Assembly: GCA_018818165.1 (NCBI GenBank)
Contig: JAHISP010000086.1
Location: 1-45,272, forward strand
DNA: 45,272 nt
Reading direction: 5' to 3'
Origin: Bacteroidota bacterium
GTDB lineage: Bacteria; Bacteroidota; Ignavibacteria; Ignavibacteriales; Melioribacteraceae
In this document: piece by piece, positions 1 through 43,848 of the stretch
Layout: each line of letters starts with the position of its first letter
Position numbering within the stretch: the stretch's first letter is position 1
Notes under the pieces: generated by a model
The model's input: only the letters and a program-made list of their open reading frames with translations
Databases searched by the model: none
What the model was told of the DNA's origin: nothing
Program-made: the position numbers and the translations under genes

Positions 1-139
1 AGTCTGGTCTAAAAAGGTATTTCCCGTCATTGCGAGGAACGGAGTGACGAAGCAATCTTTTGATTTTGCGCTAAATTCGGCAGATTGCTTCGCTCCGCTC
101 GCAATGACATTATTCAATAGAACCTTTTTATAGTAGACT
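1..139. repeat. Palindromic repeat element (MITE/REP-like)
   Basis: The whole stretch is an imperfect inverted repeat. The inner arms are 26-58 and 82-108: both contain GTCATTGCGAG and GAAGCAATCT (or its complement), and the left arm has six extra bases. The outer ends also pair: AGTCT...AAAAAGGT at 1-18 against ACCTTTTTA...AGACT at 122-139. It has no coding capacity. 'GTCATTGCGAG...GAAGCAATCT' palindromes are a known type of dispersed non-coding repeat in many bacterial genomes. The outer ends suggest a mobilised unit rather than a simple terminator. The window starts at its edge, so the element may extend further left. Confidence 0.7.
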
Positions 140-153
140 CAAATATTTAACAG

Positions 154-2859
154 CTAAGAAAAAGTGACTCTAAATTTAGAACCCACATCTTTTTTGCTAA
201 AAACCTCAATTTGGGCATTATTTAATTCACAATATTTTTTTACCAAAGCCATACCAATTCCGTTACCTTCAAACTTTCTAGTAAAGCCCATTTCCTCTTG
301 TGAAAATGGTTCAAATAGACTTGTCAAATATTCATCCTCAATTCCAATTCCCGTATCTTCAACCTCAACAGCTAAGTTTTCATCATCATTACGAATCATT
401 TTTATCGACACTTCTCCTTCAAACGTGTATTTTAGAGCATTATCGATGAGTTGTATAAAAATCTGATTTACGGTGTAGGAATCTCCAATTATTTCAGTAT
501 CGCTTGCAGAGTTTATTAAAGTAAATTTAAGATTTTTCTTTTCGGCAAGTTTTTTGTTTTCAGCAACAATTGAAATCAAAATTTCGGCATATAAATCAAA
601 ACGAGAAATATTTTTTTCATAAGTGCCAGCTTGAATTTCTGATAAATTAAGCAAAAGATCTACTGTTCTTATAATTCTATCGCCAGCTCTATCAATTATA
701 TCAAAACTCATTATTTGCTCTTCAGTGGCATTTTCTTCAAAGTCATATCTAAGTAAACTTGCCATGCTTACTAATGCATTTATTGGTGTACGTATTTCGT
801 GAGACATTTGAGCAAGAAAAATTGATTTCATCTTGTTTGCGTTTTCGGCGTTATTTTTCGCTTTTATAACTTCATCAATCATTTTTTTCTTTTCGGTAAT
901 ATCCTCTTTAACCGCTACAAAATTTATTATTTCTCCACTATTATTTTTAATTGGAGAAATTGTTACTGATTCCCAAAAAAGCTCACCGCTTTTCTTTCTA
1001 TTATGCAATTCGCCTGTCCACTTGTTTCCACCTAAAATTGTTTGCCAAAGCTCACTGTAATATTCCTTTGGATGCTCGCCCGATTTTAAAATATTTGGAG
1101 TTTTGGAGGTTAATTCGTTAAGTGAATAACCAGTAATTTCAGTAAACTTTGGATTAACATATTCAAATTTTCCATTCTTATCAGTAATTACTACACTTAT
1201 TGTATTTTGAGTAATTGCATTTGAAAGTTTACGAATTTCCCATTCACTTTCTTTTCGCTTTGAAATGTCGCGGATAGCTGCCAAACGGATATTTTTCTTT
1301 TCACCATCAAATTCTATTTTTCTTGATTCTATTTCTATTGGAAGAATTGTTCCATCTTTTCGAATTACTTCAACTTCATAAGGCAATACAAAATCACTTT
1401 TCATGTTTTTAATAACAACTTCGTGATACTTTTGTGGAATTACCATCTGAATAACATTTTTACCCAACAATTCCTCGCGACAATATCCAGATATTTCCTC
1501 TATTGCTTTATTTGCGTCTATTACTAAACCGCCATTATGAATTACTATTCCCTCATAAGTTAAAGACGATAGTCTTGCATAACGTTCTTCACTTTTTGCG
1601 AGTGATTTTTGCATTTGATATTCTGCAGTAACATCGCGGAAGACAAGAACAACCCCACGAATATTTTTCTGCTCATCTAAAATTGGAGCAGCACTATCGG
1701 CAATGTTATATTCAGTTCCATCTTTTGCAATAAGAACTGTGTGATTTGCAAGACCGACTATCTTGTGTTCCAAAAGCACCAAATTAACCGGATTGACCAC
1801 TTTTTCGCGAGTGCTTTCATTTACAATTTCAAATATTTCCGCTAATTCTAAACCTTTTGCCTCATCATTTTTCCAACCAGTAAGTTTTTCGGCAACAGAA
1901 TTCATCAATTGCACTTTCCCAAATTTGTCGGTAGTTATTAGTCCATCTCCAACCGAACGAATTGTTACAAATAGCTGTTCTTTTTCGTCAAACAATTCTT
2001 TTTCGGCAATCATTTTAGCCACCAGCATATTATTAGCATTTATTGCCATTTCTTCAAAATTAGAAAATTTTATTTTTGATAAATTTATTGGCTCATTGTT
2101 GCAAGCGGCTTTTGTTAAAAATAGATTAAATTCGCCAAAATCATTTTTTAGTTTTTTTACTTGTAGATTAATAAGAAACAGAAAGATAGCAATTGTAATA
2201 ATAACCACGACAATTGTGTAAATCAGGTTTTTTAATATCATTGTGATTATCTGATTTTTCATTAAAGCTAAATCGCTGTTGATTTCAGTTAAATAAACTC
2301 CCGCTCCAACAAGCCATTGTAGTTTTTGAATTCCGTAAATAAACGACACTTTTGGCGATTCTTCGACTGCGCTTGTATATTTTCTAAATGTATAATTGAT
2401 AAAATCGCCATTATGTTTTTGAGCCGCAATATATTCCTTATCAAATATATCTTTCATTTTTTCTGAATTAGTTGTATAAACCTCCCATAATTTTTGCTTT
2501 CCAGATAAAACTTGCCCATTAGAAATTAAAGCATCTCCATTAAATTTGTTGATAAAAATATATCCTTCTTTGCCAAACCTGATATTGCCAATTAACTCAA
2601 ATAGTTCTTCCTTTATTTTCTCTTCATCATAATCGGGGTTTTTTAGTTTTAAATTTATGATTTCTACAACTTGCATAACTTCTTGCTTTAAGCACTCTTT
2701 TTTCTCCGCAATAAATTCATTTCTTCTTCTATTGGCTCGGTAGTCATAATCGATATACGAAACTATTGTTTCGTAAGTAATAAGAATTGCAGCAAGACTT
2801 ACTAAAAACACAACTCCCATCTTTTGGGTAAGTTTGATAAAATCAATTTTTTGCTTCAT
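154..2859 (-). CDS. Membrane sensor histidine kinase, cache-PAS3-HisKA-HATPase
   Basis: 901 aa. TM1 is about residues 13-33, followed by a periplasmic single-cache region (about 37-195, with GKEGYIFI typical of sCache_2) and TM2 (about 203-230). Three PAS domains follow (about 295-415, 420-540, 545-665), then HisKA with SHEIRTPIN (phospho-acceptor His687) and a HATPase_c with N-box QLIDNALKYT, G1 DTGIGI and G2 EGNGIGMAL. It should sense a small periplasmic ligand through the cache domain and autophosphorylate. It has no receiver domain and no adjacent regulator. It is the last gene of the array, 150 bp beyond the PocR kinase. From PAS2 onward it closely resembles the kinase at 7993, and its transmitter resembles that at 3010. 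No strong Shine-Dalgarno precedes the ATG. Confidence 0.93.
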   Translation of the reverse strand: MKQKIDFIKLTQKMGVVFLVSLAAILITYETIVSYIDYDYRANRRRNEFIAEKKECLKQEVMQVVEIINLKLKNPDYDEEKIKEELFELIGNIRFGKEGYIFINKFNGDALISNGQVLSGKQKLWEVYTTNSEKMKDIFDKEYIAAQKHNGDFINYTFRKYTSAVEESPKVSFIYGIQKLQWLVGAGVYLTEINSDLALMKNQIITMILKNLIYTIVVVIITIAIFLFLINLQVKKLKNDFGEFNLFLTKAACNNEPINLSKIKFSNFEEMAINANNMLVAKMIAEKELFDEKEQLFVTIRSVGDGLITTDKFGKVQLMNSVAEKLTGWKNDEAKGLELAEIFEIVNESTREKVVNPVNLVLLEHKIVGLANHTVLIAKDGTEYNIADSAAPILDEQKNIRGVVLVFRDVTAEYQMQKSLAKSEERYARLSSLTYEGIVIHNGGLVIDANKAIEEISGYCREELLGKNVIQMVIPQKYHEVVIKNMKSDFVLPYEVEVIRKDGTILPIEIESRKIEFDGEKKNIRLAAIRDISKRKESEWEIRKLSNAITQNTISVVITDKNGKFEYVNPKFTEITGYSLNELTSKTPNILKSGEHPKEYYSELWQTILGGNKWTGELHNRKKSGELFWESVTISPIKNNSGEIINFVAVKEDITEKKKMIDEVIKAKNNAENANKMKSIFLAQMSHEIRTPINALVSMASLLRYDFEENATEEQIMSFDIIDRAGDRIIRTVDLLLNLSEIQAGTYEKNISRFDLYAEILISIVAENKKLAEKKNLKFTLINSASDTEIIGDSYTVNQIFIQLIDNALKYTFEGEVSIKMIRNDDENLAVEVEDTGIGIEDEYLTSLFEPFSQEEMGFTRKFEGNGIGMALVKKYCELNNAQIEVFSKKDVGSKFRVTFS

Positions 2860-3009
2860 AATTTTTATCGTTTTGTTTTACAATTTTGCAATATAGCAAG
2901 AAACTTATTATTTATTTCATTCTTTTGAACCTTTAATCAAAAAATATTTTTTACATAATTTCTTTTTTTTTTACTGCTAGGAGATTTGTTTTACTAGTTT
3001 CACATTGAA

Positions 3010-5823
3010 CTAAAATACTATTCTAAACGTAGTTCCAACATTTTTAACACTTTCTACTTCAATTTTTGCGTTATTTAATTCGCAGTATTTCTTAACTAAT
3101 GCCATTCCAATTCCATTGCCCTCATATTTTCTGGTATAACCCATTTCTTCTTGTGAAAATGGTTCAAATAAATTTGGTAAATATCTTTCCTCTATTCCAA
3201 TTCCAGTATCCTTAATTTCAACAACTAGCTGGTCGTTCTCATTTCGTGAAACTTCCACAACTATTTCACCCTCATTTGTGTATTTAATTGCATTATCAAT
3301 TAGTTGAACAAAAATCTGATTTACAGTGTATGCATCGGCAATAAGTTCAGTATTTAAGGTAAATGTATTTAAAATTAGTTTTAAATTTCTCTTTTCAGCT
3401 AATTTTCTATTATCTGCAACAACCAAAGATAAAACTTCTGAATATAGATCAAATTTTACGCTGTTTTTTTCATAAGTACCAGTTTGTATTTCAGATAAAT
3501 TAAGAAGAAGGTCAATAGTTCTTATAATTCTTGCACCAGCTCTATCAATAATTTCAAAGCTCATTATCTGATCTCCATTTGCTTGGGCTTCAAAATCGTA
3601 TCGAAGAAGACTTGCCATACTAACCAATGCATTTATTGGTGTTCTAATTTCGTGAGACATTTGAGCAAGAAAATTAGATTTCATTTTATTTGCATTTTCT
3701 GCTTTCTCCTTAGAGATGAGCAATTCTTTTTCCGCAGTTTTTCTTTCAGAAATATCTTTTGTATAACCACTAATTGCAATTGGAACTTCTTCCTTATTGA
3801 AAATAGCTTTACCTGTAACCTCAACTGGAAAAGTGTTTCCATTCTTGTGTACAGCTATCGATTCAAATCTAATTCCTTTATGCTTTAAGCCAAGAGCAAG
3901 TTCTTGTTTTATTAATTCCAATATCTTCAAATACTCAGTGTGCGTAAAGAAATCAAAAGCATTCATTTTTAGAGCTTCCTCCTGTGAATATCCCAAAATA
4001 GAATATACACTTTGGCTTGCATATAGCATATTAAGCTCCATATCAACTTTCCAAATAAAATCGACAGAATTTTCTGCAAGAACTCGGTATTTGCTTTCAC
4101 TTTCTATAATAGCTTCTGCTACTTTCTTACGCTCGGTTATATCTTCTTTAACTGCAACAAAGTGAGTAATTTTTCCATTATTGTCTTTAATAGGTGAAAT
4201 TATTGCAGATTCCCAAAACAATTCTCCATTTTTCTTTTTATTATGAAATTCTCCATTCCAATTTTTACCAGATGAAATTGTATTCCATAAATTTTTGTAA
4301 AACTCATGGGATTGCTCACCAGATTTTAGAATTTTGGGATTTTGATTAATTGTTTCCTTAAAAGTATAGCCAGTCGTTTCAATAAATTTTGGATTAACAT
4401 ATTCAATATTTCCTTTAATATCTGTAATCACTATGCTAACAGGACTTTGTTCAATTGCTTGAGAACGTTTTTGTAATTCCTTTTCAGTTTTTTTTCTCTC
4501 CGTTATGTCGTGCCCAATAACAACTAAGCCTTGTCTTTTTCCACTATCATCAAAAACAGGTACTTTAATAATATCATATACTCTTTCGGAGCCATCTATT
4601 GTTGGAATAACTTCCTCGCCTTGTGATAATTTTTTTTTAGCCCAAGCTTCTTCATCAGAAACCATACATGATAGAAAAGCATTTTTATAAATTGGATCGG
4701 TAAATTGAGCAAGTTCTGCATCAGTTTTACCCAAATAGTCAACACCATTAAGTGAAAACAACTCTAAATCTGCCTCATTTGCAATTAACCATCGTCCTTT
4801 AGCATCTTTGAAACAAATTATATCGGGAGTTGAGTTAATAAGGATTCTTAGTCTTAATTCACTATTTTTTATTACATCTTCCATTTTTTTGCGTTCAGTT
4901 ATATTTCGGGCAACCCCAAGCACACCAATAAGTTCTCCTTCATTATTGTACATTGGTGTTTTGGATGTTTCAATTATTTCAGTGTGTCCATCATCAGCAA
5001 ATTTTATCTCTTCTTCAGTAATTGTTGTTTTATTTGCAATGATAGCCGCTTTATCGTGTGCTCTAAAAGAATTGGATATTTTTTTATTTACAAAATCATA
5101 ATCCGTTTTTCCCACAATATCATTTTCTTTGGCACCAAAAAATTTTTCAAATTTTGGATTACATTTCAGATAAACTCCTTCTAAATTCTTTAGCCAAACA
5201 AGATCGGGTATTGTTTGAAATAGTGTACGTAAATGTGCTTCACTAATTTGAATAGTTTTATTAGCTTCTTTAATTTGGATATTCATTAAACCCTGTTCAG
5301 CAAGCATAACTGCTATTTCAGCCAAAAAGCTGAGAGTTTCTTTAAATCTTTCTTCGGTTACAACGGGAACTTTTTTTAGAGCCGTAATATAGTCATCAGT
5401 ATTGTATCCATAATCTTGGGCTTGTTTTTTAAATTTTTCAAAATTTGGTTTTTCAAAAAGAATTTGTCCTGTAAACAGGTTTGCTACATGTACTCCTTTG
5501 ATAATTATTGGGGTTGCTCCATCTACCAATCCAAGTTCACAATGGTGAATGTTCAGTTCTTTTCCTTCTTTTAATTGTGACGTAAGAGCAAAATTACTTG
5601 ATTTACAATGAATTTCTGATTCCGGGAAAACACGATGAAATTTTACACATATATCACGCCATCCTGTTCCAATAAGCAATTCCTGTTCTGGATAAGAAAC
5701 AAGACCAGTAGTAAAGCCTGTGGATTTGGAAAATAATTCAAATAAATTACGTAGTTGATTAATATCTACTAAATCTTTAAAAGAATATTTTCCATCTACT
5801 AGGTTTTTAGTTGTAATTTTCAT
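3010..5823 (-). CDS. PocR-PAS4 sensor histidine kinase (soluble)
   Basis: 937 aa with no signal peptide or membrane segment. Residues about 15-170 are a PocR-type ligand-binding domain (starting near DLVDINQLRNLFELFS, with spaced cysteines Cys59, Cys73 and Cys95 as in that family). Four PAS domains follow (about 195-315, 325-445, 455-575, 580-700). HisKA has SHEIRTPIN (His724), and the HATPase_c has QLIDNAIKYT, DTGIGI and EGNGIGMAL. PocR domains are known or proposed to bind small organic ligands; the ligand here is unknown. The ATG is preceded by AAGAAGAG, a fair ribosome-binding site. The transmitter is a close paralogue of those at 154 and 7993. It lies 108 bp from the TPR kinase, so it may have its own promoter. 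No output domain is present. Confidence 0.92.
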   Translation of the reverse strand: MKITTKNLVDGKYSFKDLVDINQLRNLFELFSKSTGFTTGLVSYPEQELLIGTGWRDICVKFHRVFPESEIHCKSSNFALTSQLKEGKELNIHHCELGLVDGATPIIIKGVHVANLFTGQILFEKPNFEKFKKQAQDYGYNTDDYITALKKVPVVTEERFKETLSFLAEIAVMLAEQGLMNIQIKEANKTIQISEAHLRTLFQTIPDLVWLKNLEGVYLKCNPKFEKFFGAKENDIVGKTDYDFVNKKISNSFRAHDKAAIIANKTTITEEEIKFADDGHTEIIETSKTPMYNNEGELIGVLGVARNITERKKMEDVIKNSELRLRILINSTPDIICFKDAKGRWLIANEADLELFSLNGVDYLGKTDAELAQFTDPIYKNAFLSCMVSDEEAWAKKKLSQGEEVIPTIDGSERVYDIIKVPVFDDSGKRQGLVVIGHDITERKKTEKELQKRSQAIEQSPVSIVITDIKGNIEYVNPKFIETTGYTFKETINQNPKILKSGEQSHEFYKNLWNTISSGKNWNGEFHNKKKNGELFWESAIISPIKDNNGKITHFVAVKEDITERKKVAEAIIESESKYRVLAENSVDFIWKVDMELNMLYASQSVYSILGYSQEEALKMNAFDFFTHTEYLKILELIKQELALGLKHKGIRFESIAVHKNGNTFPVEVTGKAIFNKEEVPIAISGYTKDISERKTAEKELLISKEKAENANKMKSNFLAQMSHEIRTPINALVSMASLLRYDFEAQANGDQIMSFEIIDRAGARIIRTIDLLLNLSEIQTGTYEKNSVKFDLYSEVLSLVVADNRKLAEKRNLKLILNTFTLNTELIADAYTVNQIFVQLIDNAIKYTNEGEIVVEVSRNENDQLVVEIKDTGIGIEERYLPNLFEPFSQEEMGYTRKYEGNGIGMALVKKYCELNNAKIEVESVKNVGTTFRIVF

Positions 5824-5931
5824 ATCGGCTCTTCTTTGCTTCTAAAATTTTTATCTCATTCAAATTAACGAATTCAATATACAGCAACTACTATTATATT
5901 TAAATTTATCTTTCATTATTATACCTCTACT

Positions 5932-7974
5932 CTAGTTATTAACATAATTGTTTTGCAAGGTAAACATAAACTTACTTCCTTTTCCTAACTCGCTTTCAAC
6001 CCATATTTTACCATCATGTTTTTCAATAAGCTCTTTACAAAGAATTAAACCAAGACCTGTGCCAGCTTCGGTGTTTGTGCCAACAGAAGTATGGTGAATA
6101 TCTATTCTGAAAAGTTTTTGTATGTCTTCAGAACTAATTCCTATTCCCGAATCAGTAATGGAAATAATAGATTCACCGTTTTTGTTTTCTGCTTCAATTT
6201 TAACAACACCACCTGAGTTTGTATATTTAATAGCATTAGCAATAATATTTCTTAAAACAGTATCTATTGCTCTAGCATCAGCAAATATAAATGTGTTTTC
6301 TTTTATAGCGTTTTCAAATGTTATGTTTTTGGTCATTGCATTTGTTTTAAAAAGTTCAATAACCTTTAAACTTTTTTCATAAATATTTATTTTTTCAAAC
6401 TTGTATTCCATTCTTTCATTTTGTGTTTGTGCCCATTCTAGCAAACCTTCTAAGAGCTTATAAACATTTGAGGAAAGATTATGTATTACATTAATCATGT
6501 CCTTAATTTCATCCGAAGTAAGATTATCATAGTCGGATACTAAGAGTTCTGTAACACCCAAAAGACCATTAAATGGACTTTTAAGATCATGTGAAATTAT
6601 TGAAAAAAATTTATCTTTATTTGCATTCGATTCCAAAAGTTTCTTTTCAGATTTTTTTAGTTGAGTATTTAGTTTTTTTACTGAAATGCTGCTCCTTAAA
6701 ATTATTGCTAAAATTATAAGAATAAAAATACTGCCAACAATTAAGATAGCCCTAATTGTTTTTTCTTCTTTAATAGTTAGCTCTTGAATTTCATTATTTT
6801 TTCTTAAAAGTATATTTTCTTGCGACTTTTTTTCTAAATAATATTTTACTTGTAAATCGGTGAATTTAGACATTTTTTCTGTATTAAAAATGCTATCCTT
6901 CACGGTGGAACCTTCTTTAAAATATTTGAATGCTAGAGCAGTGTTGCCCCTTTTTTCTTCAATTTTCGACAGAAGGAATTGGTTATCCTTAATTATGGAA
7001 TTATAACCGTTTACAAGTGCTTTTTCCAAACTGGATAGAGAATAATTTAGGGCTTTATCCAACTGATTTAACTCTAAATAAGTTCTAGCAAGAAAATATT
7101 CTGCAGTTGAATTACGAAACTGGTCATTTATATTTTTTGAAAGATTATTTGATTCTTGATAATATTTTATTGCCGTGGTATAATTTTTTAATTTATAGTG
7201 AATATCACCAATATGTTGAAGTACAACAGTAATAGAACGGTCTTTACTATTTACTGAAAAATATTCATCATAAGATAATTGATAACATTTTAGAGCATTT
7301 TGATAATCTTTTTGGGATTCATAGCAAATGCCCAAGTTTAAGTTTGAAAAGGCACGTGCAGAAGCATCATTTGCTTTGTTTGCATTTAACAATGCTTCGT
7401 TGTGATATTTTAAAGCGTCATCAAACAGTCCCCATTCCTGATAAACACCACCAACATTATTTGAAATTACAGATATACCTCTGTAATCTTTTTCAGCTAT
7501 TCTTATTTTTAAAGCTTTTTGATATAGCTCTAGCGCATCATTGTAATTACCAAGACCCCAATATGTTGCAGCTAGATTATTTTCAACTTTGGCAATTAAG
7601 CTAACATCTTTCAATTGTGTAAAAATTGACAAAGCTTCTTTATAATAATCAATGGTTTCAAGATAATTACCCAATTGCCAATTGTGAAAACCAATTTTAT
7701 TTAGCAAAACTCCTTTACGATGAACATCTATTTTTTCTTGAAATAAATTAAGAGCTTCAATATAGTAAGCTATTGTTTTTTTCTCATCAAAAGTATTGTA
7801 GGCATAACCTAATTGAACTAGTATTTCCGCTTGGCTTGAATCATTCTCTGTTATTTTAAGAACTTGTTGAAGACTATCAATATTAATAGCTTGAGGAAAA
7901 ACACTACTTGTTATTACGCTTGCAAACATCAAGGCTATGAATATGTACAACTTGTTTCTTTTAAAAATTAACAT
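5932..7974 (-). CDS. TPR-containing sensor histidine kinase
   Basis: 680 aa. An N-terminal signal/anchor (about 8-28, ending near SSVFPQA) is followed by seven or eight tetratricopeptide repeats (about 45-370; the pattern LGNY..A...Y..AL recurs), a short coiled coil, a TM segment (about 405-427), HisKA with ISHDLKSPF (His462) and a HATPase_c (NAIKYTNSGG, DSGIGI, GTGLGLILC). The TPRs should lie outside the cytoplasmic membrane, a layout common in Bacteroidota kinases, and may sense through protein contact. The C-terminal signature HHTSVGTN.EAGTGLGL is shared with the receiver-kinase at 11314, so the two transmitters are close relatives. It lies 18 bp after the PAS kinase at 7993 in the same tight operon. 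Confidence 0.92.
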   Translation of the reverse strand: MLIFKRNKLYIFIALMFASVITSSVFPQAINIDSLQQVLKITENDSSQAEILVQLGYAYNTFDEKKTIAYYIEALNLFQEKIDVHRKGVLLNKIGFHNWQLGNYLETIDYYKEALSIFTQLKDVSLIAKVENNLAATYWGLGNYNDALELYQKALKIRIAEKDYRGISVISNNVGGVYQEWGLFDDALKYHNEALLNANKANDASARAFSNLNLGICYESQKDYQNALKCYQLSYDEYFSVNSKDRSITVVLQHIGDIHYKLKNYTTAIKYYQESNNLSKNINDQFRNSTAEYFLARTYLELNQLDKALNYSLSSLEKALVNGYNSIIKDNQFLLSKIEEKRGNTALAFKYFKEGSTVKDSIFNTEKMSKFTDLQVKYYLEKKSQENILLRKNNEIQELTIKEEKTIRAILIVGSIFILIILAIILRSSISVKKLNTQLKKSEKKLLESNANKDKFFSIISHDLKSPFNGLLGVTELLVSDYDNLTSDEIKDMINVIHNLSSNVYKLLEGLLEWAQTQNERMEYKFEKINIYEKSLKVIELFKTNAMTKNITFENAIKENTFIFADARAIDTVLRNIIANAIKYTNSGGVVKIEAENKNGESIISITDSGIGISSEDIQKLFRIDIHHTSVGTNTEAGTGLGLILCKELIEKHDGKIWVESELGKGSKFMFTLQNNYVNN

Positions 7975-7992
7975 AAAAATTTTACCAATCTT

Positions 7993-10476
7993 TTAATTAA
8001 AAATGACTCTAAATATAGACCCAATTCCTTTTTTGCTTTCTATTTCAATTTTTGCATTATTTAGTTCGCAATATTTTTGAACTAATGCCATTCCAATTCC
8101 ATTGCCCTCATATTTTCTTGTATAACCCATATCCTCTTGTGAAAAAGGTTCAAAAAGACTTGATAAATATTTGTCTTCTATTCCAATTCCAGTATCTTTA
8201 ATTGAAACAACTAATTTGTCTTGCTCATTTCTTAAAACTTCAACATCAACTTCACCTTCATTTGTATATTTAATTGCATTATCAATTAGTTGAATAAATA
8301 TCTGATTTACAGTGTATGCATCAGCAATAAGTTCAGTATTTGAAGTAGATGTATTTAGAATTAATTTTAAATTTTTATTTTCAGCTAGTTTTCTATTATC
8401 CGCAACAACCAAAGATAAAACTTCCGAATAGAGATCAAATTTTATGTCGTTTTTTTCATAAGTACCTGCTTGTATTTCGGATAAATTAAGAAGAAGGTCA
8501 ATAGTTCTTATAATTCTTCCACCAGCTCTATCAATAATATTAAAGCTCATTATCTGATCTTCGTTTGCTTGAGTTTCAAAATCGTATCTAAGAAGACTTG
8601 CCATGCTAACCAATGCATTTATTGGTGTTCGTATTTCGTGAGACATTTGAGCAAGAAAAATTGATTTCATTTTATCTGCATTTTCTGCTCTATTTTTTGA
8701 AATAACCAATTCGTCAATCATTTTTTTCTTTTCTGTTATGTCTTCTATTATTCCAAGAAAGTGGGTTATTTTTCCTTCAACATCTTTTATTGATGAAATT
8801 CTTGCTGATACCCAATAAAGATCACCGTTCTTCTTTTTATTACGAAATTCTCCAGCCCATTCTTTCCCAGCCAAAATAGTATCCCATAGTACTTTGTAAA
8901 ATTCTTTTGTTTGTTTACCAGAACTTAATATTCTAGGGTTTTTTCCTAAAATTTCCTCAATTGTGTATCCTGTGGTTTCTACAAATTTAGAATTAACATA
9001 TTCTAATTCACCTTTTTTATTAGTAATTACCACAATTATAGGGCTTTGCTCAATAGCATTGTAAAGCTTTTTAATTTCAAATTCGTTATTCTTTCTAATA
9101 GAAATATCTCTAATTGCAGTTACTCTCACACCTAAATTATTGTTTCCATAATTTATATTTTTAGATTCAATTTCTAAAGGAACTATTACTCCATCTTTTC
9201 TAACTCCTTCAATTTCATACGGCAATGAAATTTCACTTTGCAGGTTAATAAATAATTGTTCATGATATTTTTCTGGAATTAGCATCTGAATAATGTTTTG
9301 CCCTATTAATTCTTCAGCACTATAACCAGAAATTCTTTCGAGAGCTGAGTTTATATCAATAACAATACCATTTTTGTGAATTAAAATGCCTTCATAAGTT
9401 AAATCTGAAAGTCTACTAAAACGTTCCTCGCTTGCTTTTAAAATTTCCTCTGATTTTTTCCATTCAGTAACATCTTCAACTAAAGCAACACCGCCAATTA
9501 TTCTAACTCCATCTTCATATATTGCTTTAAAATGAATTATTATTGGAGTGGTCTTTCCTCCTGTAATAGATGTATAATATTCTTCATAATAAGCAGAACC
9601 ATCAAACAATGTTTTTTCAACAGCATTAATAATATTTTTATCTGTAAGCTGCTTTAGCATATTCAGCCCTATTAACTTTTCTCTCGTTGATCCAAGAATT
9701 CTTACGAATTCATTGTTGCAATTAGTAATAATACCTTCTGTGTTAAAGTGAAAAATTCCAAGGGGTGCATAGTTAAAAACATTCCTATATAGTTCCTCAC
9801 TAGTTTTTAAAGCTTCTTCTGTTCTGATATGCTCTTTAATTTCCTCTTCTAGCTCACCTAAACTTTCAGCTATTCTCTCTTCGAGAAGTTCGTTCTGATC
9901 AGCAAGTTGTTTCATTAAATATAAATTATCAAGTTTGTTGTTTATAAGTGTAACGGAATGTTTTAATACATTTCTTATTGAGTCTAATCTATCATCCTCA
10001 CAATTATCAATGCATATTAAAACTCCATCATGGTTTCTTAAGTTAGCAAATGATATTATCAAAATATTTTTTGGTGTAAAACTTGTCTTATTAAATTCTA
10101 TTTTAATTTGTGAATTAGTTTCATCATATTTTATAATTATAATTTCTTTTTGTAATGCTTTTTCTTTTAGGAGTGGAGAAAGTTCTATTTTTGCTATTTT
10201 TTCTTCCTCTGTAAATGAGGCATATTCATACTCAATATTCATTTTGCCGTTTCCAATAGTGCCAAATGCGCAATAAGGAATATTCTTCATTATTGAAATT
10301 TGTTCGAGAGCTACCTCAAAAACATCTTTCTCATTAGATAGCAGACTAATACTTTCTGCTGTGGATGCAAAAAGAAAAATGTCCTCAGCCCTTCCAGTCC
10401 AATCGCTATTTTCAATTTCTAGAAGTCTAATTTTTTCTTCTAAAGCCCTAATTTTTTGTGTTAACTCTTCATGCAT
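7993..10476 (-). CDS. GAF-like/PAS3 sensor histidine kinase (soluble)
   Basis: 827 aa, no membrane segment. A short N-terminal coiled coil precedes a GAF-like region (about 30-185). A second coiled coil (about 195-225) leads to three PAS domains (about 228-345, 350-470, 475-595), HisKA (SHEIRTPIN, His613) and HATPase_c (QLIDNAIKYT, DTGIGI, EGNGIGMAL). The ATG overlaps the end of the alpha/beta-hydrolase gene by 8 bp (ATGCATGA), so translation of the two is probably coupled. PAS2 and PAS3 and the transmitter closely match the kinase at 154; the transmitter also matches 3010. The GAF call rests on length and position, not on clear motifs. No receiver or DNA-binding output is encoded. Confidence 0.92.
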   Translation of the reverse strand: MHEELTQKIRALEEKIRLLEIENSDWTGRAEDIFLFASTAESISLLSNEKDVFEVALEQISIMKNIPYCAFGTIGNGKMNIEYEYASFTEEEKIAKIELSPLLKEKALQKEIIIIKYDETNSQIKIEFNKTSFTPKNILIISFANLRNHDGVLICIDNCEDDRLDSIRNVLKHSVTLINNKLDNLYLMKQLADQNELLEERIAESLGELEEEIKEHIRTEEALKTSEELYRNVFNYAPLGIFHFNTEGIITNCNNEFVRILGSTREKLIGLNMLKQLTDKNIINAVEKTLFDGSAYYEEYYTSITGGKTTPIIIHFKAIYEDGVRIIGGVALVEDVTEWKKSEEILKASEERFSRLSDLTYEGILIHKNGIVIDINSALERISGYSAEELIGQNIIQMLIPEKYHEQLFINLQSEISLPYEIEGVRKDGVIVPLEIESKNINYGNNNLGVRVTAIRDISIRKNNEFEIKKLYNAIEQSPIIVVITNKKGELEYVNSKFVETTGYTIEEILGKNPRILSSGKQTKEFYKVLWDTILAGKEWAGEFRNKKKNGDLYWVSARISSIKDVEGKITHFLGIIEDITEKKKMIDELVISKNRAENADKMKSIFLAQMSHEIRTPINALVSMASLLRYDFETQANEDQIMSFNIIDRAGGRIIRTIDLLLNLSEIQAGTYEKNDIKFDLYSEVLSLVVADNRKLAENKNLKLILNTSTSNTELIADAYTVNQIFIQLIDNAIKYTNEGEVDVEVLRNEQDKLVVSIKDTGIGIEDKYLSSLFEPFSQEDMGYTRKYEGNGIGMALVQKYCELNNAKIEIESKKGIGSIFRVIFN

Positions 10477-11296
10477 TTAGAACCCCTTTGAAAAATTGGA
10501 CTATTCCTCTAGCAATTTGATCTGGCTCGTCTTCCATCATAAAATGACCAGCTGTTGATATTTTTAGTAGTTTACTGCCATGAATATTGTTATGTAGTGT
10601 TTTACTAATATCAGCACTTAAATAAACATCTGCTTCACCATGAATTATAAGAACAGGAATCTCTAAATTATGGAGTTTATCGCTAATTTCAAGAAGCTGT
10701 TTATTATTCAAACACTCCGCAAGATGTAAAAATGCTTTGCGCCCATTGCGTGTTTTAAGTGGCTCCCAAAACAAGTCCATTAATTCATCTGTTAGAACCT
10801 CTTTATGAAATAATCCTCTTTTTACAATTAGTCTAAATGTGCCAAAATCTAAAGTTGCCATTGCCAATTGTCTAATAATTGGTGTTCGCATGGCAATAAT
10901 AGGTTGAACAGGCCAAAAATCGTAAGCAACTGAATTAATAAGAGTCACATCGTAAAATAATTCGGGATTATTTGCAGCTAATATTTGGGCAATGCCGCCA
11001 CCAATATCATGAGCAACAAGGTGAACTTTGCCTAGTTCAAGTTTTTTAATAAATTCCACAATAAATTTGGCTTGGTTTTTAATTGAATAGTCAATATCTA
11101 AGGGTTTATCAGAACTACCACATCCAATTAAATCAACAGCAATTACATCGTAATTTGGACTAAGTAGTGAAATAATTTTCCGCCAAATAAAAGAGTATGT
11201 TGTAATACCATGAATGAGAAGTACATGTTCACCTGAGCCCTCTCTTATATAAGAAATATCAATTCCAGAGAGATTACACTTATTATTAGCCTTCAT
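10469..11296 (-). CDS. Alpha/beta hydrolase with Asp at nucleophile position
   Basis: 275 aa alpha/beta-hydrolase fold. The oxyanion motif is LLIHGITTYSF near the N-terminus. The nucleophile elbow reads VAHDIGGG, giving Asp rather than Ser. The acid is in IHGEADVY and the catalytic His in AGHFMMEDEP. An Asp elbow is known in haloalkane dehalogenases and epoxide hydrolases, so an ester or haloalkane/epoxide-like substrate is possible; the substrate is unknown. Its ATG follows GGAG at a good distance. It sits 17 bp after the receiver-kinase and overlaps the PAS kinase downstream by 8 bp. An enzyme inside a kinase operon recalls the RsbQ-RsbP pairing of a hydrolase with a PAS protein, although RsbQ uses Ser; this parallel is inference. 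Confidence 0.88.
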   Translation of the reverse strand: MKANNKCNLSGIDISYIREGSGEHVLLIHGITTYSFIWRKIISLLSPNYDVIAVDLIGCGSSDKPLDIDYSIKNQAKFIVEFIKKLELGKVHLVAHDIGGGIAQILAANNPELFYDVTLINSVAYDFWPVQPIIAMRTPIIRQLAMATLDFGTFRLIVKRGLFHKEVLTDELMDLFWEPLKTRNGRKAFLHLAECLNNKQLLEISDKLHNLEIPVLIIHGEADVYLSADISKTLHNNIHGSKLLKISTAGHFMMEDEPDQIARGIVQFFKGVLNA

Positions 11297-11313
11297 ATTT
11301 TACTCCACTAAAA

Positions 11314-12423
11314 TTAAATGCTATGGCTATTTGGCAAAGAAAACATAAACTTACTTCCTTTACCAAGTTTACTTTCAACCCAGATTTTTCCATTATGTTT
11401 TTCAACTAGTTCTTTACATAAAAGTAATCCAAGACCTGTACCAGATTCATTATTTGTACCCACTGAAGTGTGATGCACACCAATTTTAAAAAGTTTCTGT
11501 TGGTCTGCTTCGCTAATTCCAATTCCAAAATCGGAAATAGAAACTACTATTTCGTTGTTATTAATTTTGGCGTTTATTATCACTTTACCGCCATTAGGCG
11601 AAAATTTAATTGCATTGGAAATTAAATTTCTCATAATTAGTTCTAACATGTTCTCATCACCAGAAACAAATAAATCCATTTTTAGATTATTTTCTATTTC
11701 TATTTTTTTTAGTGATGCACTTTCTTTAAATAATTGCAGTACTTTTAGAAGCACGTCAAACATGTCAGTTTTCTTGGGATTATATTGAAAACTACCTAAT
11801 CTTGCACGTGACCAATTTAGCAGACTTTCTAATAATTCATACGTATTTTTTGCACCATTTTTAATTAAGTTAATTAATTCTTTTCTTTCTTTGTCTGAAA
11901 AATCATCATATTCAGCGTCCAAAAAATCGACTGTGCTAATAATTACGCTTAATGGATTTTTTAAATCGTGAGAAATAATGGAAAAAAATTTATCTTTGCT
12001 TACAATTTCCTCTTCCAATTTACGGCGATTTATTTCTAATTCTTTTTCTACCCTTGCTTTATCCAAAACCATTTCAATCATTGCATAAAGTTCTTCTTGA
12101 TTGTATGGTTTAAGCATATATCCAAAAGAGCCAGCTTTTTTGGCTCTATCAATTAATTTGGAATCAGAATATGCAGTAACAAAAATTATTGGAATTCTGA
12201 ATTTAGAATATATTTCCGTTGCTGCATCAATGCCATCCATTTCTGTTTCGAGATTTATATCCATTAATATTAAATCAGGAATTTCTATTTCAGCATGTTT
12301 AATAGCCTCTTCACCAGAAGTCACAATTGCAGAAACGGTAAATCCCAATTTTATTAATGTTACTTTTAAATCGAGAGCAATTAAATATTCATCCTCTACA
12401 ATTAAGATGTTTTTTTTTGCCAT
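11314..12423 (-). CDS. Receiver-histidine kinase hybrid (REC-HisKA-HATPase)
   Basis: 369 aa from the ATG chosen here; a TTG 12 bp upstream is also open but has no usable ribosome-binding site. The N-terminal receiver (about 4-120) has the acidic pair ED, phospho-acceptor Asp55 (LILMDINL), the Thr of FVTA and the Lys of LKPY. HisKA follows with ISHDLKNPL (His152), then HATPase_c (NLISNAIKFS, DFGIGI, GTGLGLLLC). A receiver placed before a kinase lets phosphate from another kinase modulate this one. It therefore could link the neighbouring kinases. The transmitter is closely related to that of the TPR kinase at 5932. Its gene lies between the HisKA_2 kinase (30 bp gap) and the alpha/beta hydrolase (17 bp gap). 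Confidence 0.92.
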   Translation of the reverse strand: MAKKNILIVEDEYLIALDLKVTLIKLGFTVSAIVTSGEEAIKHAEIEIPDLILMDINLETEMDGIDAATEIYSKFRIPIIFVTAYSDSKLIDRAKKAGSFGYMLKPYNQEELYAMIEMVLDKARVEKELEINRRKLEEEIVSKDKFFSIISHDLKNPLSVIISTVDFLDAEYDDFSDKERKELINLIKNGAKNTYELLESLLNWSRARLGSFQYNPKKTDMFDVLLKVLQLFKESASLKKIEIENNLKMDLFVSGDENMLELIMRNLISNAIKFSPNGGKVIINAKINNNEIVVSISDFGIGISEADQQKLFKIGVHHTSVGTNNESGTGLGLLLCKELVEKHNGKIWVESKLGKGSKFMFSLPNSHSI

Positions 12424-12453
12424 GATATTTTTCAACCTTTGATAATTGAGATA

Positions 12454-14133
12454 TTATTGTTTTTTTGCAAATACGATAGTATAGCTAGTTCCATTTGTTA
12501 CATCCAAATCTATATCTCCTTTTAGCTGACCTTCAACTAAATCAAAAATTAATTGCATACCAAGAGATTCAACCTCGTATGGTTTAATTTCTGATGGCAT
12601 ACCTATTCCATTATCGGAGAATTTTAGCAATATTTTATCGTCTTCTAAATTTTTAAATATAATTTTAATTTTCCCATTCTTTTTATTTGGGAAAGCATAT
12701 TTATATGCGTTTGTAAGTAATTCATTTATAATTAGAGCAATTGGAATTGTTTCATCTAAAGAAAAATCCATTTTTTCAATTTCCAGTTCATGTTTAATCT
12801 TTTTATCAATAGAACCAAAAGCTCTTACAGTGTTTTGAATTAATTTATTAATATACTCTTCTGGGTCAATAGTTGAAAGATTATCAGATTTATAGAGTGT
12901 TTCGTGAATTAAACCCATTGCGTTAATTCTACTATTGCTCTCGGCAAATGCATTTCTAATAACAAGGTCTTCAATTGAATTTGCTTGAAGATTTAATAAA
13001 CTCATTACAATTTGCATATTGTTTTTTACTCGGTGATGAACTTCTTTTAAAAGTATGTCCTTTTCTTTCAAAGAACTTTTTAGTTGTTCTTCTGCTGTTT
13101 TCAGATCTTTTAAGGAGTTCTTTAGTGATAAATTTTTCTTAGATAATTGGTAGAATAATAAAATAATTACAAATATTATCACAATAGATATAATTAAATT
13201 AACAACAAATGAGAAAAAAAAGCCATTAATTGTTTCATCTTTTTTATAAGAAACAAAATAAGCTGCATTTTGGTTTTCTATATTTTTTACTGGAATAAAA
13301 ACTATTTGCCAATTTTCCTTTTCAAGCGAAGTGTTTTTTATAAATTCTTTACCGTTATTCAATTCATGAGAAACATTTGCAAAAATCTGTCTATTCAATT
13401 TTACAATTATACTATCCTTCCTTGATGCTTTTGTAACAAAAAATTCATTAGAAAGTGTGCTTAGTTTATAATTTGATTGTTCATTAAAAAACCCCTTTTT
13501 CTCAACAATTGTTTTTTTTAAGATAAAATCGGTTTTATTCAAAAGTATTTTTTCAACAAAAGCTACAATAGATTTGTAGGACATGCTCACTTCAACGCTT
13601 CCAAGATGTTTTCCATTATAAATAATTGGAAAAACATTTCTGAAACCATTAAATGTTTCGCCTTCTTCAAAACCAACAACTTCGACAAGTTCTTTATTTG
13701 CTTTTTCGACAGAAAACCGAACACCAATTAAACTATCCCCCCATTTATTTATCCTATTAAAACGTAAAAAACTCTCTGAATTTGGAAGATGAAAATGGAG
13801 CTGTCTTACGCCAAGTCCCTTAATATTGTTATAATGGGGCAATAATTTGTTATATAATTCATTTCTACTTTTATCCTTAACCTTCTTATCTACTGAGTTA
13901 GCTTCTGCCAGTATTTTTAACACCTCTGGCTGCATCACATAATTTTGAAAAAATTGTTTGGCAATAGTGTGGTTTGATTCCAAAATAAAATTATAAGTTA
14001 TTTTAAGACCTTCAATTTCCTTACTAAAATATTGCTCTTTGCTATTCTCATAAACTTGAAAACCTCTAAAAACTATAATTGCAGAAGCACCTATGAGTAG
14101 AATAATAAAAGCGATTTTTTTTTGAATTGTCAT
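12454..14133 (-). CDS. Membrane sensor kinase, cache-HisKA_2-HATPase
   Basis: 559 aa. TM1 is about 7-24. A large periplasmic region (about 30-305) resembles double-cache sensors: the stretch with NRINKWGDSL, VGFEEGETFNGFR and HLGSVEVSMSY matches the dCache_3 style. TM2 is about 310-335, then a coiled coil and a HisKA_2 dimerisation box LLKEVHHRVKNNMQIVMSLL (acceptor His366 or His367). A HATPase_c follows (NELLTNAYKYAF, DNGIGM, SLGMQL). HisKA_2 kinases usually pair with stand-alone or atypical regulators; the only receiver nearby is the next gene, the REC-kinase at 11314. It is the first gene of the tight five-gene run, with 223 bp of upstream non-coding DNA for a promoter. Confidence 0.9.
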   Translation of the reverse strand: MTIQKKIAFIILLIGASAIIVFRGFQVYENSKEQYFSKEIEGLKITYNFILESNHTIAKQFFQNYVMQPEVLKILAEANSVDKKVKDKSRNELYNKLLPHYNNIKGLGVRQLHFHLPNSESFLRFNRINKWGDSLIGVRFSVEKANKELVEVVGFEEGETFNGFRNVFPIIYNGKHLGSVEVSMSYKSIVAFVEKILLNKTDFILKKTIVEKKGFFNEQSNYKLSTLSNEFFVTKASRKDSIIVKLNRQIFANVSHELNNGKEFIKNTSLEKENWQIVFIPVKNIENQNAAYFVSYKKDETINGFFFSFVVNLIISIVIIFVIILLFYQLSKKNLSLKNSLKDLKTAEEQLKSSLKEKDILLKEVHHRVKNNMQIVMSLLNLQANSIEDLVIRNAFAESNSRINAMGLIHETLYKSDNLSTIDPEEYINKLIQNTVRAFGSIDKKIKHELEIEKMDFSLDETIPIALIINELLTNAYKYAFPNKKNGKIKIIFKNLEDDKILLKFSDNGIGMPSEIKPYEVESLGMQLIFDLVEGQLKGDIDLDVTNGTSYTIVFAKKQ

Positions 14134-24184: not shown

Positions 24185-25495
24185 ATGGAATTTCCCCAAA
24201 TGATTGATTTTGAAAATATTGAAAATGATAATAAAAAGCAGTTGTCATATATCATGGTTTACGTAAGTTCCATTATGTTTCCCGTATTCATGTTAGTTTC
24301 ATATTTCCAAAAAGATTTTATAAACTTCATTTATACAGCCTCTGCGAGCATTATCCAATTATTATTTTATTACTTACTTAAAAAAAATTATTCTCTAAAA
24401 ATAGTTTATACTTTAGGGTTTACTGTATATGCTCTAATTTTTATCTATCTTATTATTACTGGTGGTATAAATAACACGGGTTTTATATGGACTTTTGTTT
24501 TTCCTATGAGTTTGTCAATTTATTTTGGTAAAAAACATGGATTACTTCTTTCTCTTATTTTTTTAATTTTAATAATAGCTAGTTTCCTTTCAGTTTCGGT
24601 CTACCGAGAAGTGGGTAATTATTTTCGACTAAAATACATTGCAGTTTATCTTTTAGTTGTGATAATTAGCTACTCTCATGAAAGAATTAAATTGCTATTA
24701 AATAACAAATTAAAAGAGATTATTTCAAATCTACAAGAAAAAAACAATGAATTATTAAGGAAGGAAAAGGAATTAAAGTTTGCCAAGGACGCTGCAATTA
24801 TTGCAGAACAAATTAAATCTGAATTTCTTGCCCAAATGTCCCATGAAATTAGAACTCCAATTAATATTATTACTGGAAATTCAGGCTATATTAAGGAAAT
24901 GATTTCTAACGATGTGGATTCTGAAATAATTGAATGTTTTAATAGTATAGAGATAGCAACTAGTAGAATTATTAGAACTACTGATTTAATTATCAACGCT
25001 TCGGAATTACAAACAGGCGGTTTTCAACCAATATTTGCTAATATTGATTTAAATAACACTGTTCTTAAAAGATTATTTGATGAGTATCAAAAAGTTGCAA
25101 ATCAAAAAGGGCTTGAATTTATTTATAAGTGTGAACCGAAAGAATTTGTTTTATTTGGTGATGATTACAGCTTAAATCAAATATTTGCTAATTTAATTGA
25201 TAATGCAATTAAGTATACAGCAGAAGGAAAAGTTGAAATTGTTTTATCTAAGCTTGTCGATAAAAAAATAATGGTAGAAATTAAAGATACTGGTATTGGA
25301 ATTAATACTAAATTTAAAGAGCAAATGTTTCATCCATTTGCTCAAGAAGAACAAGGCTACAAAAGAAAGTTTGATGGAAATGGACTTGGGTTGACTTTGG
25401 TGAAAGGTTACCTTGATTTACATAAAGCCAAGATAGAAGTTGAAAGTTCAAAAAATATTGGCTCAACTTTTAGAATAATTTTTGATCAAGAATAA
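24185..25495 (+). CDS. Membrane-embedded sensor histidine kinase
   Basis: 436 aa. Five or six hydrophobic helices fill residues about 18-165 (for example LGFTVYALIFIYLIITGG), leaving little periplasmic mass, so it may sense within the membrane. A coiled coil (about 170-205) leads to HisKA with LAQMSHEIRTPIN (His220) and HATPase_c (NLIDNAIKYT, DTGIGI, DGNGLGLTLV). The C-terminal tail QGYKRKFDGNG.GL and the spacing mark it as a relative of the transmitters at 154, 3010 and 7993, 14 kb away on the opposite strand. It has no adjacent response regulator. An ATG six codons downstream (MIDFEN) is an alternative start. Confidence 0.9.
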   Translation: MEFPQMIDFENIENDNKKQLSYIMVYVSSIMFPVFMLVSYFQKDFINFIYTASASIIQLLFYYLLKKNYSLKIVYTLGFTVYALIFIYLIITGGINNTGFIWTFVFPMSLSIYFGKKHGLLLSLIFLILIIASFLSVSVYREVGNYFRLKYIAVYLLVVIISYSHERIKLLLNNKLKEIISNLQEKNNELLRKEKELKFAKDAAIIAEQIKSEFLAQMSHEIRTPINIITGNSGYIKEMISNDVDSEIIECFNSIEIATSRIIRTTDLIINASELQTGGFQPIFANIDLNNTVLKRLFDEYQKVANQKGLEFIYKCEPKEFVLFGDDYSLNQIFANLIDNAIKYTAEGKVEIVLSKLVDKKIMVEIKDTGIGINTKFKEQMFHPFAQEEQGYKRKFDGNGLGLTLVKGYLDLHKAKIEVESSKNIGSTFRIIFDQE

Positions 25496-29265: not shown

Positions 29266-30222
29266 ATGAGTCTACAATCAGAAAAATTTGAAAAGCAAAT
29301 AGAAAGGATTCATTTCCTTTTATGTCAAGATGATGCTATTGTAACTTGGAACGACAAAATAGTCGACCCAGATAACCCAAATCAATTGAGACAAATTGAT
29401 ATTACGATAAAATCTGGTAATTATTTGACAATGATTGAATGTAGATTTCAGAAGAAAAAACAAGATGTTAAATGGATAGAAGAATTGATGGGGAGAAGGA
29501 CAAGTTTAAGAGCTGATTCTCTAATTGCAGTTTCTTCATCTGGCTTTACGGAAGGAGCGATAAAAAAAGCAATAAAATATGGTGTCATTTTAAGAGATAC
29601 AAAATCACTCACAGAAGAGGAAATTCAAAGATGGGGACACCCTACCAAAGTAAGTCTGAAATACTTCCATTATGAAAATGTAATAATAAAATTCGTCATG
29701 AAATCAACAAGTGATGTAATATTCGACCAAAATACTTTGTTAAGCGAGATAAAAAAAGAGAATCTATTTTCTACTATATTTGAGAGGGTGGCTCAAGAAA
29801 TTCTGAATGCAAATGTCCCTGATATTCCGATCAAAATTAAAGTCCCATTTATGATAGAAGGTTTAAATATCTCTAGTTGTGATGTGCTATCAATTATATT
29901 TGAAGCTGATTTCCATGTAATAAAGACTAATTTGGATACTCCTTCTGTTGTTGTATATGACGATCCAAGAATCCTTCCGATTGAACGAAACATTTCCATT
30001 GAGAAATATGAATTAGATACTTTCGAAATAACTAAATCTTCAAATAATGTTTCTGTAATAATGGACTTATCACATATAAAGAATCCAATAAATACTCAAT
30101 TCAGAAGTAGCAATTTTAATTTTGAAAGAGAAATGAATCTCAACTACATAGAATTTGTAGGTCGACCGAATTTTGATTTCGGATTAGAGAATATTATACT
30201 AGAAATCAATTATTTAAAATAA
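29266..30222 (+). CDS. PD-(D/E)XK nuclease-like (Mrr-type) protein
   Basis: 318 aa. Residues about 1-125 form a restriction-endonuclease-like fold: the catalytic pattern reads QIDITIKSGNYLTMIECRF (Asp45 and Glu58-Cys-Arg60), with the usual final Lys replaced by Arg, followed by IEELMGRRTSLRADSLIAVS and SGFTEGAIKKA as in Mrr_cat proteins. The C-terminal 190 aa show no recognised domain and could recognise a target. No methyltransferase is adjacent, so it may be a stand-alone or type IV-like enzyme. It follows mntA-hepT after 161 bp of AT-rich DNA. Whether the ECR variant cuts DNA is unknown. Confidence 0.75.
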   Translation: MSLQSEKFEKQIERIHFLLCQDDAIVTWNDKIVDPDNPNQLRQIDITIKSGNYLTMIECRFQKKKQDVKWIEELMGRRTSLRADSLIAVSSSGFTEGAIKKAIKYGVILRDTKSLTEEEIQRWGHPTKVSLKYFHYENVIIKFVMKSTSDVIFDQNTLLSEIKKENLFSTIFERVAQEILNANVPDIPIKIKVPFMIEGLNISSCDVLSIIFEADFHVIKTNLDTPSVVVYDDPRILPIERNISIEKYELDTFEITKSSNNVSVIMDLSHIKNPINTQFRSSNFNFEREMNLNYIEFVGRPNFDFGLENIILEINYLK

Positions 30223-37999: not shown

Positions 38000-38011
38000 T
38001 TGAGGAATTCA

Positions 38012-39229: not shown

Positions 39230-39288
39230 CCCTAAATCAATTAGATTTATTTAAAATGAAAACACAAATAAAACAAGGAAATATTAAG

Positions 39289-41814: not shown

Positions 41815-41851
41815 TAAATCTGTCATTTTTTACTGACGCTTAAAGGAAGAA

Positions 41852-41875
41852 AATGAATTGGCTTTAGCCTCATTT
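41852..41875 (+). terminator. Weak hairpin after the glucanase operon
   Basis: AATGA...GGCT pairs with AGCC.TCATT across a short loop, with a three-base bulge and only a weak T-run. It may end the operon's transcript, but the structure is marginal. Confidence 0.3.
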
Positions 41876-42000
41876 ATAACACGCGAATTTACTTTTGTTC
41901 TTAAGTTGACAACATTGCTATGGCACAAAGGAATTCTAATTACAAGTGTAACACAAAACTAGTTATAAATTGAAATAATGGTCAATTCAAACTAATAGAA

Positions 42001-42273
42001 TTACATAATAACTTTTTTCTTTTTAAGATGATTTTTTAAAGATATAAAAAATATTATTGCAGTTAAACAAGCTGTAACAGCATTTGCAACAATTACTGGA
42101 AGATCGTTTATTATTATACCATATATAAGCCAGCAAATAACTCCAGAGAGTAAAACTCCATACATTACTGGGGATAAGTCATCGGTTGATTTTGTTTTAA
42201 TAGTTTTAATCACTTGCGGAATAAATGCAAATGTTGTTAGTGATGCGGCAATAAAGCCAAATAATGTTAACAT
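42001..42273 (-). CDS. SemiSWEET sugar transporter
   Basis: 90 aa with three membrane helices (about 3-22, 34-53, 58-79), the size of a SemiSWEET protomer. The PQ motif is in TTFAFIPQVIKT, and KSTDDLSPVMY follows as in the family. Proteins of this type work as dimers and move sugars down a gradient. It faces the glucan operon tail to tail and lies downstream of the FucP-type symporter gene on the same strand, with 204 bp between. Its sugar is not identifiable. Confidence 0.9.
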   Translation of the reverse strand: MLTLFGFIAASLTTFAFIPQVIKTIKTKSTDDLSPVMYGVLLSGVICWLIYGIIINDLPVIVANAVTACLTAIIFFISLKNHLKKKKVIM

Positions 42274-42477
42274 ATAGATTTTTATTAAATGAGAAAATTG
42301 TAAGAAGATTATTCATATAGCACTCGTGCCATTAAAGACAATAGAACGCACTAGTTTGAAAACTTGAAGTGCAAATATACCAATTATTTCACAATTTAAA
42401 ATGATAACTAAACTAGAAATAATTTAGCATAAATAAGTAAGCTCGATTAAACCCAAACATAATAAATGTATACATAT

Positions 42478-43797: not shown

Positions 43798-43822
43798 AAA
43801 AACCAGATTTATTTTCTTTTCG

Positions 43823-43842: not shown

Positions 43843-43848
43843 AATTTT

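Follow-up and report, generated by a model that had tools for sequence, protein, structure and literature searches.

Organization of the Kinase Array

The window, which is the whole stretch of DNA that was analyzed, is the entire contig C37 (45272 bases). Seven genes on its minus strand (154–14133) encode six histidine kinases and one alpha/beta hydrolase; they are named here by their lower coordinate. The first gene in order of transcription (14133–12454, 559 aa) encodes a membrane kinase with dCache_3, HisKA_2, and HATPase domains. It is followed by a receiver-headed kinase, or receiver-kinase (12435–11314, 373 aa; Response_reg, HisKA, and HATPase), the hydrolase (11296–10469, 275 aa; Abhydrolase), and a cytosolic kinase in which Pfam recognizes three PAS domains, HisKA, and HATPase (10476–7993, 827 aa). 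The last three genes encode a TPR kinase (7974–5932, 680 aa; TPR, HisKA, and HATPase), a cytosolic PocR-PAS kinase (5823–3010, 937 aa; PocR, four PAS, HisKA, and HATPase), and a membrane Cache-PAS kinase (2859–154, 901 aa; an sCache_2/dCache_2-type Cache domain, three PAS, HisKA, and HATPase). The successive gaps are 18, 17, −8, 18, 108, and 150 bp, so that the first five genes are spaced by 17–18 bp or overlap; these genes may well be co-transcribed, and the two longer gaps of 108 and 150 bp are possible promoter sites. Hydrophobic segments flank the sensor in three kinases (12454, 5932, and 154), and the same measure finds none in the other four proteins. Gene calls and domain searches thus confirm the sequence-only reading of this region as six kinases with six different heads, plus a hydrolase, on the minus strand, the first five genes tightly packed. 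The heads indeed differ, but the transmitters less so: identity to the 154 transmitter is 73% for 3010 and 76% for 7993.

A receiver profile search of the contig returns a single receiver domain, inside 11314, as had been read from the sequence, and no separate receiver gene; the side below position 154 lies outside the contig. The earlier claim that the array has no output gene therefore holds for the visible contig but not as a general statement, because the array runs to within 153 bp of the contig end, below which absence cannot be judged. An interspersed-repeat unit (26–57, plus strand) lies at that end, with a near-inverse copy at about 83–108; nine copies are found in the genome when up to 3 mismatches are allowed. 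Scans for promoters (87 matches, versus 76.8 in shuffles, sd 8.5) and for terminators (2 matches, versus 4.6, sd 2.3) return about as many matches as shuffled sequence. The arrangement of ordinary kinase-regulator pairs, with a regulator gene beside each kinase, is not seen on this contig. Response regulators are plentiful elsewhere in this genome, which has 95 receiver matches, 91 of them above the family cut-off.

The genome contains 71 transmitter matches. In 2000 simulations with 71 positions placed at random, at least five fell within 12 kb 7 times. The observed density exceeds chance, and local copying accounts for part of it. By a rough count based on match positions, which omits the 4 receiver matches below the cut-off, 34 of the 71 transmitters lack a fused receiver and also have no regulator gene within 4 kb. 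The contig carries a further orphan kinase (24185–25495, plus strand) whose first third looks membrane-spanning by eye; its transmitter is distant, 44% identical to that of 154, and no receiver gene adjoins it. Translations read by eye also point to a restriction-endonuclease fold (Mrr-like) at 29266–30222 (plus strand) and, at 36980–44856, to two glycosidase-like genes, a glycoside hydrolase family 3-like gene, a sugar transporter-like gene, and a LacI-like regulator.

A HisKA_2 Kinase and a Receiver-Headed Kinase

The product of 12454 (12454–14133, minus strand) has its dCache_3 head between hydrophobic segments at residues 2–28 and 300–333, followed by a HisKA_2 transmitter, and is proposed to be the upstream kinase of the protein encoded directly behind it. 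That protein, 11314 (11314–12435, minus strand), has the order REC-HisKA-HATPase and retains Asp59, Thr87, Lys109, and His156 (TTG start numbering). It shows the hallmarks of a Rec-controlled kinase: a receiver at the N terminus as the sole sensor, DHp and CA domains behind it, a phosphorylatable Asp59 in the receiver, and His156 in the DHp. It matches LvrB (8vc9) colinearly over residues 29–368 (E 4e-13). The extract of PMC13269768 on LvrB describes a receiver that can switch its attached kinase, and Rec-controlled kinases switched by an upstream kinase as known.

Gene order in relatives was surveyed in a HisKA_2 sample of 30 rows, made up of 27 fetched stretches with flanks (28 rows), the window, and genome G002; 29 of these genes are recognized by the model made for this survey, and one (L097) is not. 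A receiver-first gene directly follows on the same strand in 19 of the 29, and the remaining 10 have none. Sixteen of the 19 receiver-first genes carry a kinase transmitter (HisKA or HisKA_3), two have ends unrecognized by Pfam, and one is a lone receiver. A class-level sample was drawn from the best 30 loci shown, one per genome, with 1.5 kb flanks; omitting repeats (6 of 29) left 23. In this sample, a receiver-first gene lies directly behind the HisKA_2 gene in 2 of 3 new loci inside the order and in 4 of 20 outside it, with L124, which the same model did not recognize, counted as a miss. The pairing of HisKA_2 kinase and receiver-kinase is thus a habit of this order and not a rule.

The type of receiver follows the same pattern. 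All 14 listed receiver-first kinases directly behind a HisKA_2 gene have a receiver scoring at least 91 bits against that of 11314, compared with 2 of 13 others (Fisher p = 6e-6). The two high-scoring exceptions are L037, which has no HisKA_2 neighbor, and L077, in which a HisKA_2 gene lies two genes away. Ten of the 13 others were found by a search with 11314 itself, a bias that works against the contrast. The receiver type is unchanged whether the attached transmitter is HisKA or HisKA_3, and it therefore goes with the upstream kinase. Four loci have a DNA-binding regulator as the next gene, of LuxR type behind HisKA_3 (L073, L074, and L078) and LytTR behind HisKA (L091). The simplest reading of these four loci would be a relay from HisKA_2 kinase to receiver-kinase to regulator.

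Because the receiver type follows HisKA_2 kinases, the likely donor of the 11314 receiver is 12454 alone. The sequence-only reading had instead proposed that all six kinases pass phosphoryl groups to this one receiver, which would integrate them. One receiver among six kinases and a receiver-kinase in three arrays of the genus fit such a scheme, and extracts of PMC5964349 describe a promiscuous receiver hub, MrrA, that is fed by HisKA_2/HWE and HisKA kinases. However, the association of this receiver type with HisKA_2 kinases extends to other loci. In the G001 array, the receiver-kinase carries another receiver, about 33% identical, and is not adjoined by a HisKA_2 kinase. Kinases with the transmitter type shared by 154, 3010, and 7993 are also found where the fetched surroundings contain no receiver gene (L061–L069). 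The kinases other than 12454 and 11314 have HisKA transmitters of two other types. Convergence of all six kinases on 11314 is not supported by these data and is considered very unlikely.

Our comparison suggests that 12454 and 11314 form a kinase-to-kinase cascade like LvrA-LvrB. As described in the extract of PMC13269768, the LvrA-LvrB system of Leptospira has the same REC-DHp-CA order and an upstream kinase as donor; here, however, the proposed donor is a HisKA_2 kinase with a dCache head, and no LvrC-like target adjoins. In the MrrA/SdrG hub of alphaproteobacteria, as in the cascade proposed here, a receiver takes its phosphoryl group from HisKA_2/HWE kinases and in turn acts on other kinases (PMC5964349, in extract). 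MrrA itself is a free single-domain receiver with the motif PFxFATG(G/Y), whereas the receiver of 11314 is fused to a transmitter and reads PIIFVTAY; 11314 was thus rejected as an MrrA-type hub. Archaeal kinases with an N-terminal receiver, REC-(PAS)n-HisKA, share the architecture, and none had been experimentally characterized according to the 2018 paper as excerpted (PMC5847659); they differ in being archaeal, and the term HisKA_2 is absent from the main text of that paper.

The best-scoring solved receiver for that of 11314 is 1s8n, listed as a putative antiterminator, which we take to be Rv1626/PdtaR. PdtaS, the kinase of PdtaR, is of the HisKA_2 type. PdtaR (Rv1626) is named as the PdtaS partner in the extract of PMC5676007. 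No description of a HisKA_2 kinase paired with a receiver-kinase was found in the extracts of the literature on receiver-headed kinases and HisKA_2, and one may exist.

The Hydrolase and the GAF Head

The hydrolase (10469–11296, minus strand) has Asp97, Asp223, and His251 and is the proposed sensing partner of the head of kinase 7993 (7993–10476, minus strand), whose gene it overlaps by 8 bp. This head (9829–10476, minus strand; 216 aa) had been called GAF-like from the sequence; it has no Pfam family match, but the assignment is upheld by its predicted structure. The model has a mean pLDDT of 86.7, and its best GAF-fold match has a Z of 16.4 and an rmsd of 3.1 over 151 residues. GAF and fRMsr structures match best, a list that leaves a PAS relation possible. 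The head is, by prediction, a GAF fold, and 7993 is accordingly described as a GAF-PAS-PAS-PAS kinase.

Full-length hydrolase orthologs of at least 55% identity define five testable loci (the window, G103, G261, G017, and G382; the G002 hydrolase is itself cut), and the hydrolase lies directly upstream of a GAF head in all five. In G382, the first 102 residues of the head are visible before the contig end, 27–36% identical to the other heads (best E 2.8e-10). Between head and transmitter there are three PAS domains in the window and two in G017, and none was found in G103 and G261. Because the pairing persists whether the head is followed by no PAS domain or by as many as three, the hydrolase tracks the head. 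Among 395 genomes of the phylum, the GAF head was found in three (G000, G103, and G017), with the hydrolase directly upstream each time; these three heads were already part of the query alignment, and the 395 genomes yielded no additional one. The hydrolase thus appears to be a companion of 7993 rather than of the whole array. Only in G261 is the hydrolase-GAF pair followed by a stand-alone receiver, and a single case does not suffice for naming a partner.

In G017, the hydrolase-GAF pair and a receiver-kinase are on different contigs. Directly behind that receiver-kinase (L032, 5911–6150; G017:C10), the first ~20 hydrolase residues run into a receiver remnant (receiver model E 1.2e-12), a trace of the order receiver-kinase then hydrolase.

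The hydrolase could also be an ordinary metabolic enzyme, a relative of dehalogenases or epoxide hydrolases that is in the operon by chance. Among proteins of solved structure, haloalkane dehalogenases are its best relatives and the first 60 include an epoxide hydrolase, and Asp97, Asp223, and His251 are invariant in all five orthologs, as is the stretch VAYDFWPVQP. Against this explanation, the gene is directly upstream of a GAF head wherever the locus could be tested, and the protein falls below the cut-off of the three listed NCBIfam dehalogenase models: NF002938 (130.5 bits, the best; cut-off 241), NF002043 (98.8; 265), and NF002873 (93.8; 466). The Asp nucleophile position is present, and the aligned Asn and Trp positions, which are presumably those that bind halide in haloalkane dehalogenases, carry Ile31 and Ile98. 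A true dehalogenase was rejected on the model scores, and a chance metabolic passenger is judged improbable.

The closest known parallel considered is RsbQ/RsbP-PAS. As in the systems described in extracts of PMC3183031, an alpha/beta hydrolase gene lies directly upstream of the sensor gene, the N-terminal domain is the likely partner, and kinases are among the known outputs. The two differ in the nucleophile, which is Asp97 in 5 of 5 orthologs here and not the Ser of a Ser-Asp-His triad, and probably in the head, for which a GAF fold is predicted in place of RsbP-PAS; the terms GAF and dehalogenase are absent from the main text of that paper.

Kinases That Share a Transmitter Type

The transmitter of 3010 (3010–5823, minus strand) is 83% identical to that of 7993 over 245 columns, and 154 (154–2859, minus strand) has the same type. 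After these, identity to the 154 transmitter drops to 50% for the closest remaining transmitter of the genome. At the DNA level, the three transmitters are mutually 74–88% identical, and outside the shared PAS-transmitter body, identity is 7–36% in 60-residue steps. Five positions that we take to decide partner choice read NASML in 154, 3010, and 7993, and in one kinase each of G001, G002, G003, G004, and G017. Two further 154-type kinases of G004 read NAGML and NVSML, kinase a on G003 C83 could not be scored at these positions, and kinase 24185, which falls outside the set, reads NIGNY. Because they share a transmitter type and have identical residues at these positions, 154, 3010, and 7993 probably feed one shared regulator that is unlinked to the array.

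In a transmitter tree, 3010 and 7993 group with good support (97/91), the placement of 154 relative to kinases of other genomes is not resolved, and 9 of 19 inner forks are left open. In G001, a different type of transmitter carries a PocR head with 61% identity to the head of 3010, which shows that heads move between transmitters. In relatives, the surroundings of kinases that have the 154-type transmitter, some of them shortened by contig ends, yielded no receiver domain. One of these loci (L061, 518–8548; G003:C83) contains two tandem 154-type kinases, with a FliM gene 0.5 kb downstream beyond one small gene.

The TPR kinase 5932 (5932–7974, minus strand) has its TPR region between hydrophobic segments at residues 8–27 and 404–435. 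It matches the FimS kinase model (NCBIfam NF053520; E 3.8e-77), but at 260 bits, below the cut-off of 600, and no receiver gene adjoins it. It is a further orphan input.

The Site behind purU

In five sampled members of the genus, the next gene behind purU is a kinase in G000, G001, G002, and G003; in G004 it is the next but one, with a 148-aa reading frame in between. Several kinases and a receiver-kinase follow in G000, G001, and G002, and the contigs of G003 and G004 end soon after the first kinase. These observations support the earlier view that the locus is not a set of ordinary two-component pairs. Of seven purU orthologs from other genera, none is directly followed by a kinase, as judged by similarity to the domains of the window. 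Across relatives, the array splits into modules. The G001 array consists of a PocR kinase, a hybrid kinase, a receiver-kinase, and a PAS kinase. This four-kinase array differs from that of the window at the same chromosomal site (L034, 4759–15645; G001:C49), and its hybrid kinase has a C-terminal receiver.

G002 has a HisKA_2 kinase behind purU, then a receiver-kinase, and then a hydrolase cut by the contig end. The core of this HisKA_2 kinase is 65% identical to that of 12454, with a Tll0287/PAS head where 12454 has dCache. A second G002 contig ends in the 3′ end of a 7993-type kinase directly before the TPR kinase, the same junction as in the window; both pieces are cut by contig ends, and the five-gene order in G002 is inferred from them. 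No receiver domain was found in the seven genes visible behind the G002 TPR kinase, and the five scanned encode CotH, GH3, HlyD-like (weak), VTC, and a decarboxylase. The flank matches G002 at 94.9% DNA identity through the final base of purU, after which identity falls to 72–73% in the HisKA_2 core, the receiver-kinase, and the hydrolase. Beyond this block, the TPR kinase is 92–94% identical to its G002 ortholog in protein sequence. The block behind purU is thus strongly diverged between sister species with 95% identical flanks, and because it is so diverged between conserved flanks, it looks exchanged or fast-evolving. The 3′ end of the receiver-kinase gene (11300–11543) shares 77% DNA identity with the 3′ end of the TPR-kinase gene of G002 (L042, 11835–12077), possibly a trace of gene conversion between neighbors.

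Such a site might be simply a hot spot at which orphan kinases accumulate by copying and exchange, with no joint function of the seven genes. Orphan kinases are common in this genome by the rough count given above, and the gene set at the site varies between species. The tight spacing or overlap of the first five genes argues against this explanation, as do the recurrence elsewhere of two gene pairs from inside the array and the conservation in G002 of the junction between the 7993-type 3′ end and the TPR kinase. Accumulation without joint function is regarded as unlikely.

Proposed Model and Its Implications

Our studies allow us to propose, with a moderate degree of confidence, that the cluster is not one funnel but three kinds of signaling module at an exchange-prone site behind purU: a cascade, a hydrolase-GAF sensor, and copied kinases on one regulator. 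In the first module, 12454 would sense through its dCache head and phosphorylate Asp59 of 11314, which would switch the attached transmitter so that it phosphorylates a regulator encoded elsewhere. In the second, the hydrolase would bind or turn over a small molecule and report to the GAF head of 7993, forming a two-part sensor. In the third, 154, 3010, and 7993 would be copies of one PAS-transmitter body whose heads have been exchanged and which feed a shared, unlinked regulator. The TPR kinase 5932 would be a further orphan input besides these modules. No output regulator was found for any of the modules.

A more far-reaching version of this model is put forward only tentatively and is rather doubtful. 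The hydrolase and the GAF-headed kinase would be an obligate enzyme-receptor module of a new kind, RsbQ-like but of separate origin, in which a hydrolase with an Asp nucleophile binds a small molecule and signals to a GAF domain. The same site would house a cascade from a HisKA_2 kinase to a receiver-kinase, with a receiver matched to the upstream kinase rather than to the transmitter fused to it, so that entire sensing modules could be exchanged at this site while feeding regulators in common.

What is new here is the combination and the two pairings, not a new principle of signaling. Large sets of orphan kinases are hard to wire up, and comparison alone yields definite predictions in this case: the donor kinase of a receiver-kinase, the match between an enzyme and a sensor, and the kinases that share one regulator. 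The wiring is open to testing one unit at a time. With the hydrolase-GAF pair, the concept of an enzyme serving as signal receptor would reach beyond RsbQ-PAS, and the pairing of HisKA_2 kinase with receiver-kinase would assign an upstream partner to many receiver-headed kinases of this order.
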